DNA of 64,000 nt. Origin: Coleofasciculus sp. FACHB-T130 (lineage in GTDB: Bacteria; Cyanobacteriota; Cyanobacteriia; Cyanobacteriales; FACHB-T130). Below are positions 15,331 to 24,843 of the stretch, one piece after another. Numbering within the stretch: the stretch's first letter is position 1; each line of letters opens with the position of its first letter. Location: positions 1 to 64,000 of the forward strand of contig NZ_JACJOG010000040.1 of NCBI RefSeq assembly GCF_014695375.1. Direction: 5' to 3'. A program made the translations under genes and the position numbers. The notes beneath the pieces are model-generated. The model did not search any database and had not been told where the DNA came from. It worked only from the letters and a program-made list of their open reading frames with translations.

Positions 15331-15387
15331 ATGCGGATGAAAGGACTTGAACCTTCACTTCTTGCGAAACTAGAACCTAAATCTAGC
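15331..15387 (-). repeat. attL: displaced 3' end of tRNA-Leu
   Basis: This is the left copy of the 57-bp direct repeat. It holds the anticodon-loop-to-3'-end part of the tRNA-Leu(UAG) gene, including the T-arm and acceptor strand. It has no 5' half and cannot make a tRNA. It is the host's original 3' end, pushed away by integration; the element supplied the replacement at the other side. Confidence 0.9.
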
Positions 15388-15419
15388 TGCAAAAAGCCTG
15401 AAACCCTTGATTTGCAAGG

Positions 15420-15464
15420 ATAGTCAATAATAGTCAATCTAATATATAGTCATTTCATAGTCAA
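15420..15464. promoter_or_regulatory. Left integrase arm-type sites (four ATAGTCA repeats)
   Basis: ATAGTCA(A/T) occurs at 15420-15427, 15430-15437, 15446-15453 and 15457-15464, all in the same direction, at spacings of 10, 16 and 11 bp. The same motif is found just inside the right end of the element. Repeats of this kind next to an att core are the expected binding sites for the arm-binding domain of a tyrosine integrase. Confidence 0.65.
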
Positions 15465-15668
15465 ACGGGTCATTAAGCTAAAATCCGGAGGTGTTGGTGG
15501 ACAAGCTCCGTCGTAAATCACAGCAGCTTTTCCTTGGCTACGTGCTGAATTGACAGCTTTTCGTGCTTCATTCCAATTGGGGTATGTACTATAAATCCAT
15601 TCACCAGGTTTATCAGTAGCGATCGCTATTACAGTTTCCTGTAGCTTCCAGTCTTGCGCTTGATTCAT
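15450..15668 (-). CDS. Small hypothetical protein, 72 aa, in the element
   Basis: I do not recognise it. The 72 residues have a compact alternating pattern (ETVIAIATDKPGEWIYSTYPN, then WNEARKAVNSARSQGKAAVIYDG) that looks like a small alpha/beta domain, with aromatic residues in the middle. There is one HIP1 site in it, unusual for this element. Its last codons overlap two of the arm-type repeats, so integrase binding could affect its expression, or the reverse. It could be a directionality factor by position, but no helix-turn-helix is visible. Confidence 0.42.
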   Translation of the reverse strand: MNQAQDWKLQETVIAIATDKPGEWIYSTYPNWNEARKAVNSARSQGKAAVIYDGACPPTPPDFSLMTRLTMK

Positions 15669-16431
15669 TTTAATAAGTAAAACTACCTACCTCTTATTTG
15701 CGCCTCTAAAGCACTAAAACAACTTTTTCTTTCCCAGTGTACCTAATAAGCTTATATCGTGCCTTACAGACGATTCTAGAGGAAGTACAGATAGCTCTAA
15801 CAGAACTATGGCTTATCTGTATCTATACTCCTGATCATCAGTTCTTGAGTGCTAATCATATATAAATCCAATAGCTCTATAACTACAAACACATAATTGC
15901 TGTATACACATAGCAGATGTAATTTTACAATTTCTGCTATAGAAAGACACATACAACTGATGTAAACAACAGAAATTCAAGCTTCTAACACAATATTATT
16001 GGGATTAAATACACACACAGTATCTACAATTAGCTTACAAAAGTAGAACATACTGTTATACATGAATATGTAATATATTAATGAATAATCACAATATGCC
16101 TATAAATTGTGTAATTATAGGGATACATTAACAATAAAAGAATCAGTAATATTATTTTCAAAGTTTTTATTAAACTATAATGATTTTTACTATTTCAATA
16201 ATTGCTAGGAAATAAATAAGTTTGACTATAGTATTCTCATTGTTAAAACACTATTCACTAAGAGCCTTTAAAGCATACTCAATCTTTAGATTGTCTTTCT
16301 ATATTTTAAATATTGACATACTGACATCGATTTAACTCCGTTAATTTTCAGTATGTACATTGAAAAATAGAGAGTTAATTAAAAGTAAAGTATCCCTCTA
16401 GATTGGTAGAATTTAGCTTTATTTGCGTGTT
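15669..16431. other. AT-rich spacer inside the element
   Basis: About 760 bp of strongly AT-rich sequence downstream of the CoiA-type gene (minus strand). I found no ORF with a ribosome site and no clear terminator. Short repeated words such as TACAACTGATGTAA and AGCTAT occur but do not form an ordered array. It could contain a decayed gene or a small RNA; nothing can be supported. Confidence 0.35.
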
Positions 16432-17895
16432 CTAGATGTCAGATGTGAAGTCTATAAAGATTGCTTTCTTCAACTCTGTATCAGCTAGACTACCCTCCAG
16501 ATACTTAGATTGAGATCCAGAGTCTGTAATAAAGCCTCTAAGCACCTCTATTGCCTGTTCATCTTGCCCGAAGCAACTCTCTATAAGTTCTAAGCTTACG
16601 CCAGCTCGGTAGGCAATGATCAAAGCACCGTAGAAGTCCGATAAATTGAGCGGTTCGGCTTTTGGTAGTTGAAACTTTGGTCGTTGAAACTGAGTAAACA
16701 GGATAAAAGTTAACAGCGAATAAATCGGCGTATCCTCGTCGTTTACTGCCTGCGCTAGCCGTTTAAACGAATAGATTTTCTCCCTAGTTTCAGAATAAAA
16801 CGATTGAGTAAACGTCAGCCAATCATTGACTATGTCCTCAATATGATTGACATCTTTAGGCTGTGGTTCTGAATAGAAAAAATGGGAATCTTCAAAGAAC
16901 TGAATAGAGAAAGCTGTTTTTGGTCGCTGCTTTCCACCATATAACGCTTCTACTATAAAGCATAATTGTGGGCGGTCTTTGACTCTATTTTTAAATACAG
17001 TTTCAACCTTTGTGTTAAGTTGGTAAACTGTCGGACGTTTTTCGTGGGTGACGTGGGATAGAAAAAATACTGAGTTACCTGTAACCGTGAATGACTTGCG
17101 GAAAGGTTTAATCTTTTTTTTGTTATCATCAGTAACTTCTGCTATTCCTGTAGATTCTGGTACAACTTCAGTAACTTCTGCTATTCCTGTAGATTCTGGT
17201 ACAACTCTTGATACTTTTCTTAGTATAGTGTGTGTAGTATCTTCTCTGATACCAAACGTTAATACAATAATTTCCAATAACTTGCTAATAACTTGAGATT
17301 TCAAAATATCTAAATTGTCACTGTTTATCCATTCTCTCAAGCTACTACTATTAGCTTCTTCTTTACACTTATAAATGCTGTAGTGAATCAATGCTGTGAG
17401 AAAATCAGAAGCGAATGTTTTATACAAAAAATTAATAACATTTTTTATTTTAGTAGATATTTTTTTAAAATTTTCTTCATTTTTACAATTATTCCTGCAA
17501 TATTTTTCAATAGCTGCGATATTTGTAATGTTTTTGTTATTTAATAGTTTGACTTTTTTAACTTTATCAACTTGTTTTTCAAAATTGAGATTGCGCTTTT
17601 TTATAATATTCCAAAAAGCATCTTTAAATTTTTCTATACTTTGTCCTCTAAATATATTGTCGTTTCTTAAATAAGTTTGACATAGAGAGCTTTCTTCTCT
17701 TGGACAAGACTCTGGAAGATTAGGAAAATGTGCAAAATGTGCTGTAGCAGCATCTCTAAAATAAACAGGCAGATAACATTCTGGACAAATTAAGCCTAAC
17801 TTTATATATTGTTCATATTCATCTTTCGTAATATCTTTTGCTTTAATAATATCTTCTTCAAAAGTTTCTCCCAAGATTGATATTGCCTTATCCAT
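16432..17895 (-). CDS. CoiA-type zinc-finger protein of unknown function
   Basis: The N-terminus (LICPECYLPVYFRDAATAHF, then AHF and a later Cys) has C37, C40, H53, H56 and C64, the zinc-finger arrangement of CoiA-like proteins, which in naturally competent bacteria work with incoming single-stranded DNA. The nuclease part of CoiA (Asp and Glu-x-Lys/Gln signature) is not visible. The remaining 400 residues are unrecognised: a Lys/Asn-rich helical part (75-225), a 13-residue repeat present twice at about 230-256 (VVPESTGIAEVTE), then a mixed alpha/beta domain (RPQLCFIVEALYGGKQRPKT). It may recognise DNA and act as element cargo or defence; that is inference. It is solitary, with long spacers either side. 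Confidence 0.6.
   Translation of the reverse strand: MDKAISILGETFEEDIIKAKDITKDEYEQYIKLGLICPECYLPVYFRDAATAHFAHFPNLPESCPREESSLCQTYLRNDNIFRGQSIEKFKDAFWNIIKKRNLNFEKQVDKVKKVKLLNNKNITNIAAIEKYCRNNCKNEENFKKISTKIKNVINFLYKTFASDFLTALIHYSIYKCKEEANSSSLREWINSDNLDILKSQVISKLLEIIVLTFGIREDTTHTILRKVSRVVPESTGIAEVTEVVPESTGIAEVTDDNKKKIKPFRKSFTVTGNSVFFLSHVTHEKRPTVYQLNTKVETVFKNRVKDRPQLCFIVEALYGGKQRPKTAFSIQFFEDSHFFYSEPQPKDVNHIEDIVNDWLTFTQSFYSETREKIYSFKRLAQAVNDEDTPIYSLLTFILFTQFQRPKFQLPKAEPLNLSDFYGALIIAYRAGVSLELIESCFGQDEQAIEVLRGFITDSGSQSKYLEGSLADTELKKAIFIDFTSDI
17129..17206 (-). repeat. 39-bp perfect tandem duplication in a coding region
   Basis: Two back-to-back copies (17129-17167 and 17168-17206) are identical and encode the 13-residue unit VVPESTGIAEVT plus E or D. 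Perfect identity implies a recent slippage event and possible copy-number variation among related strains. The unit lies between the helical and C-terminal parts of the zinc-finger protein and is likely a flexible linker. Confidence 0.85.
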
Positions 17896-18433
17896 CGTTT
17901 ATAATTCCCAAGTCTAGTACGTCTTTTAGCAGTATTCCCAAATTTAAAGTTACAGTTACTATTCGCTCTTGTGATTAATATCACAAATATTGATGATTGA
18001 TATCATTTACTTTGTGTATATCGCCTTTTTATTTCTGGTTTATATAGAAATTGATGAAGCTTAAGTTTGTCAAACATATACATATACATAAACTTTAAAA
18101 CTGAATTTAATCAGACAGGCATAGATAAAAATTAGTGTTTAAATACTCCTCAAAGTCTTACTTTGGCTACTCATAAAATCTATTAATCTATGTTTTTGCA
18201 AGATTTATTTTAACAAGCTGGATATAAAAAAGTGTATAGGATTGGTGAAAACATTAACTATATTTTTATATAAATGCTTATTCTAGAATAGAGCAAAGTG
18301 TATATTTGACAATTGAAAAACATTGTTGATGACGAACAGCAGAAATCAAAAATGTTTTCTATAAGGACTTACAGAATCTATAAATTCACAGTCTCCTAAA
18401 ATATTAGCTGTGATTAAAATGGTTATTTACAAG
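17896..18433. other. AT-rich spacer inside the element
   Basis: About 540 bp between two minus-strand genes. It must hold the promoter of the CoiA-type gene. I saw no ORF with coding character, no clear terminator and no ordered repeat. Confidence 0.35.
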
Positions 18434-19798
18434 CTATTTTTTATAGCTTTTTAATTTACTACTAATTACAGCATAATTAGCTTGATAAGTAATACGCTTC
18501 TCTTTAGCTATAGATTCTACAAATGTTCCTTGAGGAATAAGACTTAATAAATTAATTGACTGTTTCAACTTTGATTGAGCTTTTAACCATATTTCTATAG
18601 AATAAGGTTTTTGAACAATCACAGCAGCTTCATATGCTAACTCTTGAGCAGTTTTTAAGTTATCTGCTGCTTTCTGTTCGATTAAAATTCTTTGACTAAT
18701 AATAGAATGATTTTGTTGATAAGCAGTAAGTTTATCTTTTACTTTAATATAGATAGGTGAATTTGGAGGAATTACTTCTAATAAATCGATCGCTTCCTGC
18801 CATTTAGATTCTACCTGTTGCCAAACCTCCAGTGAATGAGGTGGATTTTGAGCAATAATAGAAGCTTCCATAGCTTTCTTTTGTGCAGCTTCTAGTTTTA
18901 GGTTGTCAGAAAGTAATTCATCATTTACATTAGGATTTTCTGAAATTTTATTAGTAGTCTCTATATTAGATACTACCTGTTTTTGATTATCAAAACTTTG
19001 GGATAATATATTTGTATTTTCAATTGCTTCACTTTCATTGTTATTAGTGTCTATATTTTTAGTAGCAACTATTGGTTGATATTGAATTCGCCTTAATTCT
19101 GAAACAATAGCATTTAAACTTATAAAACTTGCAAATGTTAAAAGTATTATTAACGTTAAGTTTTTCTTCAAAAACTCTTTTCTTAGTTGTTTTTTCTCTA
19201 ACTGCTTCCTTAACTTAGGGTTCTTGAGGCACTCTTCTGCTAAACTTTTTACCTTGCTATTTTCAGATATTAGTAGGTTGATTGTCTTAATAAGAAACAG
19301 TAGCACCGAAAGTTCTAAGCTTTTTTTACTTTCTTTTTTACTTTTATCGAATAAAGCATTTACCATGTTATCAACACCATCTCCAAGTAAGTTTTGACCT
19401 ATTTCTGAGGCAACATTTGATATAACAGGGATTGGCATAGTAACTACTTTTAGTTTAAATCCTAATGCAAATTTACCAAGTCCAGTAGCAAATTTTCCAG
19501 TACGATCAACAGTATTACTAACATTGTCAACTACATTTACAACTACATTCTCAACTATATTTCTAGATTCAAGTTTTTTAATTTCAGCAATTACCTTATA
19601 GTTTATGTGCATCAACTGATTTTCAATATCAATTAGTTTATTAGCCTGTTCTTTCATCAACTCAACACTACCAAAAATTAACTTAGGACTCTCCTGTAGG
19701 TAAGTTCTATCAATTTGTAATCTTTCTATTATCTGATTTAAAATTAATTGTTTATCTTGAGAAAGTTCCAATAAGTTCTGTGGTTTAACGTCAGACAT
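18434..19798 (-). CDS. Membrane-anchored protein with two C-terminal repeats
   Basis: The 454 residues divide into: an N-terminal helical part (1-80); a glycine-rich amphipathic stretch (FATGLGKFALGFKLKVV, then VVTMPIPVISNVASEIGQNL); a charged coiled part with ELSVLLFLIKTINLLI; one clear membrane helix at about 208-230 (LTLIILLTFASFISLNAIV); a linker rich in Asn; and two related repeats of about 70 residues, each with an Ala-rich helix, a Trp (SLEVWQQVESKWQEAIDLL and SIEIWLKAQSKLKQSINLL), IPP or IPQ, and a closing YQxNxxIIS/YAVIS. Such repeats occur in other cyanobacterial proteins of unknown role. No catalytic motif is seen. An effector or anchoring role is speculative. Confidence 0.55.
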   Translation of the reverse strand: MSDVKPQNLLELSQDKQLILNQIIERLQIDRTYLQESPKLIFGSVELMKEQANKLIDIENQLMHINYKVIAEIKKLESRNIVENVVVNVVDNVSNTVDRTGKFATGLGKFALGFKLKVVTMPIPVISNVASEIGQNLLGDGVDNMVNALFDKSKKESKKSLELSVLLFLIKTINLLISENSKVKSLAEECLKNPKLRKQLEKKQLRKEFLKKNLTLIILLTFASFISLNAIVSELRRIQYQPIVATKNIDTNNNESEAIENTNILSQSFDNQKQVVSNIETTNKISENPNVNDELLSDNLKLEAAQKKAMEASIIAQNPPHSLEVWQQVESKWQEAIDLLEVIPPNSPIYIKVKDKLTAYQQNHSIISQRILIEQKAADNLKTAQELAYEAAVIVQKPYSIEIWLKAQSKLKQSINLLSLIPQGTFVESIAKEKRITYQANYAVISSKLKSYKK

Positions 19799-20770
19799 TT
19801 TAAAACTCTAAGTTAATAGTGGTAATAAAATACAACAGATAAAGAAATTAAAAAATTGTAAATTCTACTGAAAATTATTCTTTAGTATTTATGAAACACG
19901 TATTTTTACGGTTCACACTGTCTTTAAAAGCATAACCATTGATCCTAAGTAAAAGTACCTAGCCTCTATAAGCACTTTTAAGTGGCATGAAATTTGCTTT
20001 AGGTCATCTAGTACCTAAAATGTTTTTAATGTGGTTTTATGGCTTTCTGTTAGAATAGCCTGAAAGCTTTATTTTGTGAGGGTTTCAGCCGTTCAGTGGT
20101 TTAATCAATTAAATATTCAGCCTTCTACCTGAATAGGCGATCGCCCCAAAACCCTTGATTTTTCGTAAATCAGCTTTGCTTTTACCACTGCTATACCCAA
20201 ATAAGGCTAAACCCGCTACATAATGAGTATTTATGCTTAGTGGGGATAAGTATTTATCCTTAAAAATTATTTTGAAAATTTTTGATCAAATTTTTTAGTA
20301 ATTTTATTTGTTTGTGATGCATAGAATCTATTAGTCAAAATAAATTACTATAACCAAAGTATACAAGTAGAAAAATTCCTAAGTCATATTTATGTAGATA
20401 AAAATACAACTTGAGTTTTTTAATGATTAATACATACCCAGTCAAACTCAATTTATCTTATTGAGTTTATAACATTTCTCACATCTATGAAATATACTAT
20501 GATTCGAGCCTATCAATTATAAAAATCAGCATAAAACCCTATTCAGTTGAATATCGACAGAAATCATTGAAGTTCAGGAAAAGGAAAGGTCAGTATAGAG
20601 ATACGTATAGGTGATGTAAATTTAGGTTTAGACAAAGTTCACTTATAATTCTGTACTGATAAGCTTGATGACCCAAAATCACCTCTAGATGAAACTCAGG
20701 AGATGATTCAAAAGAATGAGTCATGGTGTTTGTGAATTTAGCTTTTATAAAATCGCTAGGAGAGAGCAGG
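19799..20770. other. AT-rich divergent spacer inside the element
   Basis: About 970 bp between the minus-strand membrane-protein gene and the plus-strand HNH gene. One HIP1 site is present near 20140, followed by AAACCCTTGATTT, which also occurs just inside attL (15400-15412). A short minus-strand ORF (20590-20781) overlapping the HNH start has no ribosome site and is rejected. The plus-strand promoter of the HNH gene should lie near 20650-20760. Confidence 0.35.
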
Positions 20771-21520
20771 ATGAAACGCAATCCACCTTGGCAACGTGAT
20801 GAATTAATTCTGGCTTTAGACTTTTATTTTCGTTATCCTCCATACAGCATTAGTCAAACACATCCTGAGCTAATTACATTAAGCGACATTCTTAATAGAT
20901 TACCAATACATACTGAACGTCCCGATCAAGAAAGGTTTAGGAACCCTAATGGTGTCTACATGAAATTATGTAACTTTCTAAGACTTGATCCTAATTATCA
21001 AGGTAAAGGACTAAGTGCAGGAGGGAAGCTTGAAGAGATTATATGGGAAGAGTTCTCATCTGATAAAACCCAATTAAGGCAAATAGCTAAGTTAATTACT
21101 GAATCAGTTTTAGAGAATAAAGCTGAAATACATGATACATATAGGGTATTTACCGATGAAGATGAAGAAGAATTTCCTGAAGGTAAAGTATTATACCGTA
21201 TACACAGAACAAGAGAAAGAAGTCAGAGCTTAGTAAAGAAAGCAAAAGAGAAACGCAAGAAAGAAGTAGGTACACTTAGATGTGATGTCTGTAACTTTGA
21301 TTTCTCTTGTACCTATGGAGAATTAGGACAAGATTATATTGAGTGTCATCATATAAAGCCAGTATCAGAGCTTGAAGATAAGCATAAAGCTAGGATTGAA
21401 GATTTAGCTCTTGTTTGTTCTAACTGTCATAGGATGTTGCATAGGAAACGACCTTGGCTCTCTATTGAAGAGTTAAAAATACTTTGCCAAAACAGTAGCA
21501 GTCTTTATAAGACTTCCTAG
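20771..21520 (+). CDS. HNH endonuclease (McrA-like)
   Basis: The C-terminal part is a beta-beta-alpha-metal nuclease: C171-x2-C174, the catalytic ECHHIKP with H193-H194, LVCSNCHRMLH with C216, C219, H220 and H224. The N-terminus (MKRNPPWQRDELILALDFYF) and the region to about residue 120 match a family of standalone HNH proteins often annotated as methylcytosine-dependent restriction enzymes. Such enzymes cut modified invading DNA. The ATG at 20771 has a strong ribosome site (AGGAGAGAGCAGG); the ATG 48 bp upstream does not. It is the only plus-strand gene in the element. A defence role fits but target specificity is unknown. Confidence 0.82.
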   Translation: MKRNPPWQRDELILALDFYFRYPPYSISQTHPELITLSDILNRLPIHTERPDQERFRNPNGVYMKLCNFLRLDPNYQGKGLSAGGKLEEIIWEEFSSDKTQLRQIAKLITESVLENKAEIHDTYRVFTDEDEEEFPEGKVLYRIHRTRERSQSLVKKAKEKRKKEVGTLRCDVCNFDFSCTYGELGQDYIECHHIKPVSELEDKHKARIEDLALVCSNCHRMLHRKRPWLSIEELKILCQNSSSLYKTS

Positions 21521-21556
21521 AAGAGCTGAAGTATATACATATTTCTGTTTCATGGT

Positions 21557-21792
21557 GTAACTGATGTAACTGCGATGTAACTAGATAGTATTTTCTATAA
21601 TCTAGTCCTAATAATAGTTTCAATCATTTATGTAACTGTAACTGGTGTAACTAATATTTTACTAACTTTATTTATTGAAAAAAGGTTCCATTTTTCAGTT
21701 ACATGGTTACATAGTTACAAAAAAGCTGAAACCCTTTAATCATAGGAGTTCCAGCTTGTAACTGACTTGTAACTAAACAATTAGCTAGTTAC
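21557..21792. promoter_or_regulatory. GTAACT iteron cluster, probable replication origin
   Basis: Eight GTAACT (21557, 21566, 21577, 21632, 21638, 21647, 21758, 21769) and three inverted AGTTAC (21697, 21713, 21787) fall within 236 bp, several spaced 9-11 bp apart, about one helical turn. AT-rich stretches lie between. The cluster is beside the VapE-type helicase gene. Iterons next to an initiator/helicase are how satellites and plasmids mark their origin. Confidence 0.6.
21719..21757 (-). terminator. Terminator of the VapE-type gene
   Basis: On the minus strand AAGCTGGAAC pairs with GTTTCAGCTT (one mismatch) around a short loop and is followed by a run of six T. It lies about 30 bp past the helicase stop, inside the iteron cluster. 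The same stem sequence is used in the element-supplied tRNA terminator at 24711-24748. Confidence 0.7.
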
Positions 21793-22925
21793 ACAAGAGC
21801 TAAGTTGCTAGGATGCCAATATTTCCCAGATTTACCATTGACTCTCGTAGCTTTATCAGGTTTGTCTAATCCTATAGATTCCAATATAGATGTAACACGA
21901 GTCTCATCGGAACGTTTCCAGCTTCTAGGTTCTTTACCGATAGCTTGAACTAAAATATCAGATAATGTAAATGGCTCTTTTTGTTGCGATATCCAATTAA
22001 TTACTAAGTCCTTCCACATATCGGATTCTTGATGATTCATGTTCATAGCATTACTAATCTGCTGTTCAGTCTCATTTAGATAGACAGGATAATTATGGTT
22101 ATATGCTTTAACTGCTGCTGCCCAAATTAAATCTCTATTTAGTTTAATCCAATCAATATCAATCTTTTGATTAATGTCAATAACCCAAAATCTTCTATTT
22201 CCTGTTGGATCTACTAAAAACTGATCTTTATTAGTAGTACCTACAAGAATAAATGAACGTTTTGCTGTAATAACATTTCTATCGTAAGGTTTTCTAAATG
22301 TATCTTCTTGTGTAGTAATGAAGTATTTTAATTTACTCATTAAATGAGGTTTAAGAGTTTCATCACATTCTCCTAATTCGATCATCCATTTGCTGTGACA
22401 AGTCATTAATTCATCTTTATTATAATTCTGAAGATTGGTAGAAGTAAACCATTCTTGACTAGCAAGTTCTCTGAAAAAAGATGTTTTGTAAAAACCTTGA
22501 CCACCTTTAAGTATAAGCACAGTATCAAATTGACATCCTGGCTTAAATACTCTTTTAACTGCACCTACTACAGTTTTAAATAAATATTTTGCTTCGATTG
22601 AAGATGGATCTATATGTAATCCTTTTTCACTTAATTCATCAAAAACTTGCTGATGATTTACATCTAGATACTTTTGAATACAACTATCCAAATAATCTTT
22701 TAAAGGATTAAAAAGATTATTCTTTGCAGCTAAATAAGCATTTTCATAAATATACGTATCTTTGTCTAGAACGATGTTGTGATTTTTATATACTTCCGCT
22801 CTAAATTCAGCAATGTCAAAAATTTTATTGTCCAAATAAATATCTTTAGTTACGCTATGATATTTTAATCTAGAAGAGAAATGAGTGTCTATAACTTGTT
22901 TAGTTAGAATATATTCCTTGCTCAT
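21789..22925 (-). CDS. VapE/VirE-type P-loop helicase
   Basis: Virulence-associated protein E homologues are superfamily 3-like helicases that drive replication of phage satellites and pathogenicity islands. The Walker A is GGQGFYKT at 141-148, with Tyr where Gly or Ile-Gly-Lys is usual but with the Lys-Thr kept. The Walker B is MIELGECDE at 181-189. The block SFILVGTTNKDQFLVDPTGN, followed by RRFWVI, contains the sensor Asn and the arginines typical of the family. At 378 residues it has no primase domain, which must be separate or borrowed from the host. A winged-helix-like C-terminus follows (WKRSDETRVTSILESIGL). Iterons lie immediately downstream. Confidence 0.85.
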   Translation of the reverse strand: MSKEYILTKQVIDTHFSSRLKYHSVTKDIYLDNKIFDIAEFRAEVYKNHNIVLDKDTYIYENAYLAAKNNLFNPLKDYLDSCIQKYLDVNHQQVFDELSEKGLHIDPSSIEAKYLFKTVVGAVKRVFKPGCQFDTVLILKGGQGFYKTSFFRELASQEWFTSTNLQNYNKDELMTCHSKWMIELGECDETLKPHLMSKLKYFITTQEDTFRKPYDRNVITAKRSFILVGTTNKDQFLVDPTGNRRFWVIDINQKIDIDWIKLNRDLIWAAAVKAYNHNYPVYLNETEQQISNAMNMNHQESDMWKDLVINWISQQKEPFTLSDILVQAIGKEPRSWKRSDETRVTSILESIGLDKPDKATRVNGKSGKYWHPSNLALV

Positions 22926-23025
22926 GATATAATTTGAATGTAATAATTAGTAATAAAAATATAAATTTTTATAAACGCCAGCAATATTAGTTGTCTGGCT
23001 TTTTTGAACTATGAAATTAGGATTT

Positions 23026-23184
23026 TTATAAAACTTGTTTTTCTAAGTATTGATCTAAAGCAGCACGAATAACAATTGATCTAGTTACTTTAAGTTTATC
23101 CGCTGTTTCATCTAATTTTTCGATAGTTTCAAATGGAATAGCTGCTGTAATTGGTTTCCAGTCAGTTAATAACCTTCTTTTCAT
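23026..23184 (-). CDS. Ribbon-helix-helix (CopG/Arc-type) DNA-binding protein, 52 aa
   Basis: A short reading frame on the reverse strand gives MKRRLLTDWKPITAAIPFET, then IEKLDETADKLKVTRSIVIR and AALDQYLEKQVL. ITAAIPFETIEKLDETADKLKVTRSIVIRAAL is a complete ribbon-helix-helix motif: a beta strand, a helix with the KLDETA register, the turn KVTRS, and a second helix. Such proteins act as dimers and repress their own operons or control copy number. It lies 100 bp upstream of the VapE-type gene in the same direction, so it probably regulates helicase, integrase or both. The gene is too short for common ORF cut-offs. Confidence 0.75.
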   Translation of the reverse strand: MKRRLLTDWKPITAAIPFETIEKLDETADKLKVTRSIVIRAALDQYLEKQVL

Positions 23185-23390
23185 ATTTTTTGTTTTTAAT
23201 AGGTTTTCTTATATTTTCATTATAATTATTTTTTCTAATATTTTCTACTTTATTAGTTAAGGATTTATATCTAAAAGTAAAGCCATTTATTTAGATGCAA
23301 ATAGTTTTTATAGGAGAATCTATATAAAGATAATTAGATGTAGATTTCTTTTAAAAGGAAGCAATTAAATTGACTAAATAGAAGACATAG

Positions 23391-23419
23391 AAAAAGGAGA
23401 GTAGTTTTTTCTACGCTCC
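23391..23419 (-). terminator. Integrase terminator
   Basis: On the minus strand GGAGCGTAG, loop AAAAAA, CTACTCTCC forms a stem with one mismatch, followed by TTTTTCT. It is 25 bp past the integrase stop and in the correct direction. Confidence 0.75.
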
Positions 23420-23443
23420 TCTATAGGTTATAGTTAGTGAATT

Positions 23444-24619
23444 TTAGAACTCTGGTACTTGCATCTGTAGAGTTGTACCTGCGTAATGCTTCATGATGAT
23501 CTCAGGGGTATTTCCTACCCATTTAGCTACTTGTACTGGTGTAACCCCAGCTTCTAAGCAAAGTGTAATGAATGTATGACGAGTAGTATATTGAGTTCGG
23601 TAGCGGCTGATCTTCCCGTCTTGAGCAAGTTGCATTACGATTCCAACTCCTCTATCTCCGCGACCCTTCCAAGCACTATCAATAAAATGACCTGAACGTA
23701 TTTCACCCCCGCGTTTGCTAGGAAATACTAATGATTCTGGATCGCAGTTCTCAGACTTAATACTCAGCAACAATGCTTGTAAAGACGGATTGCAAGGAAA
23801 TTTACGTGTTTTGTGAGTTTTGCAATCTTTTCGGATTTTTAGCTGACTGCTAACGGATTCGCAGAATGTAATCAGTTTGCAGTCTTGACTAATATGCTTC
23901 CACTTTATACCAACGGCTTCACCAGTACGACATCCAGTCATAAACAGGAATTTGACAAATGCTGCGTAAAAGCAATAGTAAGGATGTTGTTCAAAAGCAG
24001 CAATAATTGTGTCGCGCTCTTCAGCAGTAAATGGGTCAATAGTATCTACTTCGTCCTTTACTACCTTTATTTTCTTAGCCATTCCGTGAAACGGATTATT
24101 GGTGATAAGAAAAGAGTCGCAAGCCCATTCACAACAGGCTGAAATCTGTGTTAGGGTACGTCGTGCAGCATCATTCGAGAGATTGGCAACTAAGAAATCT
24201 CGAATCTTAATCGAATCATTTAAATCTTTAGTAGGCAGTTTGGCAATGTGATTACGTACAGCAGCATACTGAATTCGTAGTGTTGTCTCAGCAATCAAAG
24301 GCTTTCTGTACTCTGTGTACTTATTCCACAAATCAGATAACGTTATTGCTTGCTTGGGTTTAATCGTTTCTATAAGAGTTAGATATGTCTGTGGTTTGTA
24401 TTTAGCTAAGGTTGGGTCAAAGTTTCCGGAAATGATGTCTAGTTCAATCTGGCGTGCTTTGATTTCTGCTGACTTACGATTTTCTGAGGTATCTGATAGA
24501 CCAAGTGTTAAGTATTTTTGCTTACCTCCAAAAAGCTGACGTGGGAGACGCAAGCGTAAGCGCTCTTGAAATGATTCGATACCTACAGACCCTTTAGAAG
24601 CTTTCTGTGTTGTGTTCAT
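23444..24619 (-). CDS. Tyrosine recombinase (element integrase)
   Basis: This is the enzyme expected to insert and excise the element at tRNA-Leu. Catalytic landmarks of the phage integrase family are visible: the first Arg in FMTGCRTGEAVGIKW, the box-II Arg in YTTRHTFITL (Tyr replaces the common His three residues before it), Trp in KWVGNTPEII and the nucleophile in MKHYAGTT near the C-terminus. The N-terminal 100 residues hold an arm-binding domain (RLRLPRQLFGGKQKYLTLGL). The frame opens 63 bp further upstream at 24682, but those codons are made of the arm repeats, so the ATG at 24619 (MNTTQKASKGSVGIE) is preferred. The gene sits 80 bp from the att core. Confidence 0.88.
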   Translation of the reverse strand: MNTTQKASKGSVGIESFQERLRLRLPRQLFGGKQKYLTLGLSDTSENRKSAEIKARQIELDIISGNFDPTLAKYKPQTYLTLIETIKPKQAITLSDLWNKYTEYRKPLIAETTLRIQYAAVRNHIAKLPTKDLNDSIKIRDFLVANLSNDAARRTLTQISACCEWACDSFLITNNPFHGMAKKIKVVKDEVDTIDPFTAEERDTIIAAFEQHPYYCFYAAFVKFLFMTGCRTGEAVGIKWKHISQDCKLITFCESVSSQLKIRKDCKTHKTRKFPCNPSLQALLLSIKSENCDPESLVFPSKRGGEIRSGHFIDSAWKGRGDRGVGIVMQLAQDGKISRYRTQYTTRHTFITLCLEAGVTPVQVAKWVGNTPEIIMKHYAGTTLQMQVPEF

Positions 24620-24622
24620 TTT

Positions 24623-24684
24623 TTGACTATGAATTCTAGTACCATTGACGCCAATCATAGTCACGCCATAGTCAAAAGTCAAGT
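24623..24684. promoter_or_regulatory. Right integrase arm-type sites overlapping the integrase promoter
   Basis: ATAGTCAC at 24657-24664, ATAGTCAA at 24668-24675 (11 bp apart), the looser AAGTCAAG at 24677-24684, and the inverted copy TTGACTAT at 24623-24630. They match the four repeats inside the left end. They cover the region upstream of the integrase start, so integrase binding would repress its own gene. Confidence 0.62.
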
Positions 24685-24710
24685 AAAAATCGTCAATTCA
24701 GTACCAAAGT

Positions 24711-24748
24711 AAAAAGGGTTCCAGCCCTATTAACAAGCTGAAACCCTT
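24711..24748 (-). terminator. Element-supplied terminator of tRNA-Leu
   Basis: On the minus strand AAGGGTTTCAGC and GCTGGAACCCTT form a 12-bp stem with one mismatch around an 11-nt loop, followed by TTTTTAC. It begins 13 bp beyond the 3' end of the reconstituted tRNA-Leu. It lies inside the element, so integration replaced the host terminator (15274-15303) with this one. Confidence 0.75.
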
Positions 24749-24760
24749 ATACTGTATGTA

Positions 24761-24817
24761 ATGCGGATGAAAGGACTTGAACCTTCACTTCTTGCGAAAC
24801 TAGAACCTAAATCTAGC
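24761..24817 (-). repeat. attR: element-borne 3' part of tRNA-Leu
   Basis: Right copy of the 57-bp direct repeat. It restores the 3' portion of the tRNA gene, from the anticodon stem to the acceptor end, so the tRNA stays functional after integration. Confidence 0.9.
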
Positions 24818-24843
24818 GCGTCTGCCAATTCCGCCACATCCGC
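24762..24843 (-). tRNA. tRNA-Leu(UAG)
   Basis: Read on the minus strand, the 82-nt gene folds as a class II tRNA. GCGGATG pairs with CATCCGC in the acceptor stem and A is the discriminator base. The anticodon stem CTAGA/TCTAG encloses TTTAGGT, giving anticodon UAG (reads CUA and other CUN codons). A long variable arm (TTTCGCAAGAAG) and the T-loop TTCAAGT follow. The CCA end is not encoded. The 3' 56 nt are part of the attR repeat, and the 5' 26 nt are host sequence. Confidence 0.93.

Follow-up and report, generated by a model that had tools for sequence, protein, structure and literature searches.

What occupies the tRNA-Leu(UAG) gene of Coleofasciculus sp. FACHB-T130, and how might it move? 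The question is raised by contig NZ_JACJOG010000040.1, of which we analyzed positions 1-64,000 (the window, 64,000 nt in all, whose positions serve as coordinates throughout). A preliminary description of this DNA had singled out a unit of 9.4 kb, bearing an integrase and a VapE-type helicase, as a possible cyanobacterial counterpart of phage-inducible islands. Our analysis leads us to conclude, with good confidence, that the unit is an integrative element unable to transmit itself, with a core consisting of the tRNA, an integrase, an optional ribbon-helix-helix (RHH) protein, a primase-less VapE and an iteron origin, followed by exchangeable cargo. In the family to which it belongs, some of this cargo appears to be phage defense.

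A foreign unit in tRNA-Leu(UAG)

The unit is bounded by two copies of a 57-bp direct repeat, without a single mismatch and spaced 9430 bp apart. Since ARAGORN places the tRNA-Leu gene across the right copy, the repeat corresponds to the 3' part of this tRNA, and it encloses an integrase-bearing unit as in tRNA-targeting elements. The 9.4-kb unit is AT-rich, with a G+C content of 31.9% compared to 48.4% in the remaining window, and it contains two HIP1 sites, compared to 1.36 per kb outside. The boundaries put forward in the preliminary description are thereby confirmed, and the foreign origin is well supported. The gene set comprises the integrase, the RHH protein, VapE, an HNH nuclease, a membrane protein, a CoiA_N-like protein and a small open reading frame (ORF). 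Among the element's proteins we found none for virion structure, as had been claimed, nor any for terminase/packaging, conjugation, relaxase or partition functions. A promoter scan gave no signal above shuffled sequences. A stem sequence, GCTGAAACCCTT, is common to the right end (24714-24748) and the predicted origin (21714-21761), and its right-end copy scans as a terminator hairpin.

The empty site sought in a close relative is present in a congener (G001), where a single 57-bp copy lies at the matching tRNA and the flanks of the element (left 96%, right 91% identity) join exactly there. At the same tRNA-Leu in another genus of the same family (G391), two 57-bp copies lie 1923 bp apart and delimit a 1.9-kb mini-element (L064; G391:C50, 6067-8046), composed of both element ends and the membrane-protein gene only. 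The mini-element is 92% identical in DNA to the window element, while the adjoining host gene is only 75% identical, and this contrast argues for horizontal arrival in G391 followed by loss of the core. The membrane protein seems to be under moderate constraint, with a ratio of nonsynonymous to synonymous substitution rates (dN/dS) of 0.54 between the two copies. No integrase of the element's family was found in the G391 genome at E 1e-8, and the mini-element would therefore need one in trans.

The element encodes a tyrosine integrase whose true start is probably near 24619, because its relatives begin near MNTTQKASKG. Integrases of this type are common, occurring in 107 of 345 genomes of the class at 1e-60, and they adjoin tRNA genes at 21 of the 24 class-search loci that were read. 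In the window, the integrase is most similar to those at tRNA-Phe (55-59% identity), and its close relatives adjoin tRNA-Phe, Met, Arg, Cys, Pro, Ala and Thr genes. A likeness to integrases at tRNA genes was thus borne out, but no second tRNA-Leu integrase, as looked for in the preliminary description, turned up. Within the family of elements described below, integrase relationships track the tRNA target: the integrases from tRNA-Asp form one pair (63% identity) and those from tRNA-Val a group of three (82-92%). The short repeats found at the element ends follow the integrase as well, with ATAGTCAA in the window, TGTCCTAA in both tRNA-Asp elements, ATTGGTAC in two tRNA-Val elements (L046 and L047) and GGTATGAA in the tRNA-Thr element (L042). 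The window motif is also found in the neighborhood of closely related integrases that adjoin tRNA-Phe and tRNA-Met. These repeats are expected to be the arm-type sites of the integrase. Several genomes also carry solitary integrases at tRNA-Phe or tRNA-Met (L002, L003, L005, L214-L222), some of them flanked by TGACTAT repeats some 1.7 kb from each other. They resemble either elements made up of an integrase alone or integrases that have become domesticated.

A predicted replication module and a family of elements

A search with the window VapE in 390 genomes of the class yielded six relatives with an equally short VapE (381-416 residues, 34-61% identity to that of the window). In all six, VapE lies in a unit with a neighboring integrase and a tRNA, and five carry tRNA-derived direct repeats at both ends, delimiting 6.2-11.5 kb. 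These are L042 in tRNA-Thr (52-bp repeat, 6.2 kb apart), L044 in tRNA-Asp (62-bp repeat, 6.8 kb), L046 in tRNA-Val (64-bp repeat at 95%, 11.5 kb), L047 in tRNA-Val (8.7 kb) and L048 in tRNA-Asp (9.2 kb), while the sixth, L043 in tRNA-Val, is cut off by a contig end. The gene order is constant, running from the tRNA through the integrase, often a small RHH-like ORF, and VapE to cargo on the far side. L046 and L047 occupy one tRNA-Val site in two congeners, surrounded by the same host genes but with different cargo, and in G254 the tRNA-Val, with its right flank conserved, stands empty. One further candidate (L049 in G341) was dropped, its VapE grouping with long VapEs and no repeat being found. 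At the tRNA-Thr site used by L042, genome G278 harbors a remnant (L070, 11188-16041) that has a transposase and a CoiA_N-like gene but lacks integrase and VapE.

The window VapE is a D5/SF3-like helicase and probably the replication initiator. Its sole match in the PDB is 7pds ("Similar to D. nodosus vapE", 2.3e-32), and the VapEs of the family retain the Walker A, Walker B, sensor and TGNRRFW motifs. It has no counterpart of the N-terminal region present in plasmid and phage VapEs, which measure about 500-980 residues as full ORFs (532-827 for the plasmid VapEs sampled). In the tree, the short VapEs of all seven elements come together in a single clade (100/99), which divides exactly by iteron type. 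VapEs from small-genome picocyanobacteria (L196-L201), which are also short (398-482 residues), are placed elsewhere, as a separate lineage beside the viral group, so the N-terminal region would have been lost more than once. A 3.1-kb Microcystis plasmid (L009, NZ_AP024567.1) has VapE and one other gene as its only annotated genes, which suggests that cyanobacterial plasmids use VapE for their replication.

Directly downstream of the window vapE, 12 copies of GTTACA/TGTAAC are packed into about 240 bp. We counted the best hexamer in the 450 bp downstream of vapE and in 100 shuffles; none of the shuffles matched this number, and the iterons of the preliminary description are thus real. GTTACA is likewise enriched downstream of vapE in L042, L043 and L044 (0/100 shuffles each), and L048 has eight copies of TAGTCA instead (0/100). 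No comparable hexamer excess was seen in the regions upstream of vapE. The iteron region occupies the same position, directly 3' of vapE, in all six relatives, and a stem-loop lies near the start of the origin in all seven elements. The consensus fold derived from the four GTTACA elements comprises 20 base pairs, and in four of these both positions vary, a covariation that is suggestive only, given four sequences. The RHH protein, of the CopG type, is probably a regulator. A small RHH-like ORF lies between the integrase gene and vapE in four of the six relatives; its status as an obligatory core part was rejected, L042 and L043 having none.

The integrase tree conflicts with the VapE tree. The integrases of L043 and L046 are 82% alike, while their VapE types and iterons differ. 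Two modules have thus been exchanged between elements, and the window element is built from two such swapped modules, for integration and for predicted replication, each with its own DNA sites.

Exchangeable cargo

The relatives carry homologues of defense systems as cargo. L046 has a complete type I restriction-modification (R-M) set (HsdM, HsdS and HsdR), L043 an HsdR fragment, and L048 a homologue of Bunzi BnzB (1.9e-67) beside a protein matching PDC-M09A. In the window element the HNH nuclease is as first described. Its closest homologue (67% identity) carries an additional N terminus that matches EVE weakly (0.027, below cut-off), and an EVE-like domain joined to HNH is a layout known in modification-dependent enzymes such as VcaM4I, as outlined in PMC7897488. 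Because the layout of the homologue matches that of such enzymes, a restriction role is likely, and the HNH protein is probably a modification-dependent or other restriction enzyme. HNH enzymes with a sulfur-binding domain restrict phosphorothioate DNA. Such a domain was rejected for the window protein, in which the published motifs of the sulfur pocket (HR/HK ... YP and KP..LL..PF) were not seen by eye and which gave no structure match to it. AlphaFold models of the HNH and CoiA-like proteins, with pLDDT of 50 and 35, were not used for fold searches.

The two other cargo proteins recur elsewhere. The "CoiA-type zinc-finger protein" of the preliminary description stood in part: its zinc motif belongs to a module with invariant C, C, H, H and C residues, found at the same place in L042, in the G278 remnant and elsewhere in the host genome, but the match to the CoiA N-terminal domain is weak (0.0026, below cut-off). 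No such protein was found in plasmids and phages. The second copy in the host (L071, contig C14, 7596-8387) is an ORF near a gene that, by eye, is Gp37/Gp68-like, as in phages. Within the window gene, positions 17129-17206 are an exact 39-bp tandem duplication (13 codons), reflecting either recent slippage or a repeat-length polymorphism. The membrane protein does bear the C-terminal repeat attributed to it, which is widespread in cyanobacteria, while its first ~290 residues had no match in the searched genomes save the G391 copy. Features of the element are listed in Table 1.

Table 1. Features of the integrative element in window coordinates
Feature	Position	Strand	Evidence or remark
Distal attachment repeat, 57 bp	15331..15387	.	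Exact repeat match
Left arm-type repeats (predicted), four ATAGTCA	15420..15464	.	Motif also near relatives L002, L005, L208-L222
Small ORF, 72 aa	15450..15668	-	No significant match in protein searches
487-aa protein, CoiA_N-like zinc motif, cargo	16432..17895	-	Module also in L042, L070, L071
454-aa membrane protein, C-terminal cyanobacterial repeats, cargo	18434..19798	-	Sole gene of G391 mini-element
HNH nuclease, cargo	20771..21520 (ORF may start 20723)	+	PF01844 above curated cut-off; PADLOC HNH 2e-13
Putative replication origin, 12 GTTACA iterons directly 3' of vapE	21556..21793	.	Motif count versus shuffles
Conserved stem-loop in origin, iterons on both sides	21714..21761	-	Consensus fold
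Short VapE, D5/SF3-like helicase	21789..22925	-	PF05272 2.3e-66, above curated cut-off
RHH (CopG-type) protein, 52 aa	23026..23184	-	PF01402 1.1e-07, above curated cut-off
Tyrosine integrase with Arm-DNA-bind_2 domain	23444..24682	-	PF00589 and PF12167 above curated cut-offs
Right arm-type repeats (predicted), three TGACTAT/ATAGTCA	24623..24675	.	End-repeat comparison
Attachment repeat within tRNA gene, 57 bp exact	24761..24817	.	Single copy at G001 empty site
tRNA-Leu(UAG), integration target, left intact by insertion	24762..24843	-	ARAGORN; Rfam RF00005 56.8 bits

Mode of life of the element

From these parts we infer how the element would work. The integrase would act through the arm repeats at both ends to recombine the 57-bp core, which lies in the 3' half of tRNA-Leu, and could release the element in circular form. 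The GTTACA iterons directly 3' of vapE are probably bound by the short VapE, which would open the origin at the stem-loop and load as a ring helicase, leaving priming to the host, while the RHH protein probably controls this VapE-driven replication. The cargo would protect the host, and such protection would favor retention of the element. Because the element has no transfer gene, it would need a helper to move, which may be a phage capsid, a conjugative element or DNA uptake.

The known systems closest to the element include the phage-inducible chromosomal minimalist islands (PICMIs) of Vibrionaceae, which have a 6.1-kb prototype, lack homologues of terS, sid and ppi and are packaged as concatemers (PMC10803314). 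Like the window element, PICMIs are small and have an integrase, a small regulator and a replication protein but no packaging genes, and, as in its relatives, defense cargo including type I R-M lies beyond the replication gene (PMC10803314). However, PICMIs have AlpA, a DUF3987/DUF5906 primase and a fis site (PMC10803314), in place of which the window element has an RHH protein, a primase-less VapE and a tRNA site. Staphylococcus aureus pathogenicity islands (SaPIs) have their origins as iterons directly downstream of rep (PMC7581432), and the window element has in common with them and with other phage-inducible chromosomal islands (PICIs) a Rep of the VapE type, whose best PDB match is 7pds, and an iteron origin placed immediately 3' of its gene. 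It differs from them in having neither stl/str nor an AlpA regulator, only the RHH protein, and no primase. No terS, ppi or capsid-size redirecting genes were found in the window element or in the cargo of its relatives. The element thus resembles PICIs and PICMIs in layout but departs from them in the features that define them (AlpA, primase, terS). The SaPI-like arrangement of helicase and origin supports the proposed counterpart of phage-inducible islands as a working likeness, and the element may be a phage satellite.

Tycheposons, found in marine picocyanobacteria and others, have a tRNA border, a tyrosine recombinase and variable cargo (PMC10872708, PMC11389934) and measure 4-200 kb (PMC10872708); their cargo is described as consisting mainly of nutrient genes. 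Taken second-hand, this loose description also fits the window element, with its tRNA border, tyrosine recombinase and variable cargo. The picocyanobacterial VapEs of L196-L201, from loci that may or may not be tycheposons, are a separate lineage from the short VapEs of the family. In the literature searched, where tycheposons were compared second-hand only, we found no name given to a family of this sort outside marine cyanobacteria. VapE plasmids of cyanobacteria share a homologous helicase core (30-34% identity), but their VapE is longer, with the extra N-terminal region, and some have partition or mobilization genes. The absence of relaxase and conjugation genes among its proteins sets the element apart from integrative and conjugative or mobilizable elements, and that of virion structural genes from prophages.

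While the integrative, replicating, foreign and modular nature of the element is well supported, several points weigh against our reading. The family was seen in about 7 of the 390 sampled genomes, the RHH-like ORF is absent from two of the seven elements, and the five TAGTCA iterons of L046 and four of L047 are not clearly above shuffles (6/100 and 46/100). The window element has no complete known defense system, and the functions of its HNH and CoiA-like proteins, as well as excision, replication and transfer, are predictions from sequence.

Three other explanations were weighed. Phage satellitism is plausible because PICMIs manage with an integrase, a regulator, a replication protein and defense cargo, and no packaging genes. 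It is quite possible, if short of an even chance, that the element is a true satellite, induced to excise and replicate by a helper cyanophage and packaged in the manner of PICMIs. Its size class of 6-11 kb and gene content parallel PICMIs (PMC10803314), the helicase and origin are laid out as in SaPIs, and the integrase is related to those of cyanophages (35-37% identity for Leptolyngbya phages, 31% for PaV-LD). Yet no AlpA-like or packaging gene was found, no helper phage is known, and single-sequence scans of IMG/VR yielded no close relative of the integrase or of VapE, an alignment scan finding only VapEs at ≤38% identity, mostly of ~680 residues. We advance only tentatively the broader idea that the family represents unnamed, cyanobacteria-wide minimal phage satellites that freely swap two modules (the integrase with its arm sites and tRNA target, and the primase-less VapE with its matching iterons and stem-loop), carry defense systems from one cyanobacterial family to another and spawn mini-derivatives mobilized in trans.

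An integrated small plasmid, or a rider on conjugative plasmids, for which the integrase is merely an anchor and VapE the plasmid replication protein, appears rather unlikely. In its favor, cyanobacterial plasmids as small as 3.1 kb encode VapE, apparently for their replication, RHH proteins take part in the copy control of plasmids, and in the tree the short VapEs fall among cyanobacterial VapEs from chromosomes and plasmids and not in the IMG/VR group; but the sampled plasmid VapEs are longer by their N-terminal region, the window element has no relaxase or partition gene, and a direct DNA comparison with PLSDB gave no matching plasmid. It is improbable that the unit is a decayed, immobile island retained for its cargo, as might be suggested by the G391 mini-element and the G278 remnant, which keep cargo but not integrase and VapE, and by the only moderate constraint on the membrane protein. 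In the window, the integrase, RHH and VapE genes are intact, with Walker A, Walker B and TGNRRFW kept, and exact repeats are present at both ends.

Little is known of the routes by which defense systems pass between non-marine cyanobacteria, a question on which this family of integrative elements bears. Because the parts for integration and predicted replication, with their matching DNA sites, are readable from the sequence, a simple culture test is possible, and the origin together with VapE could be put to use in filamentous cyanobacteria as a small replicon.

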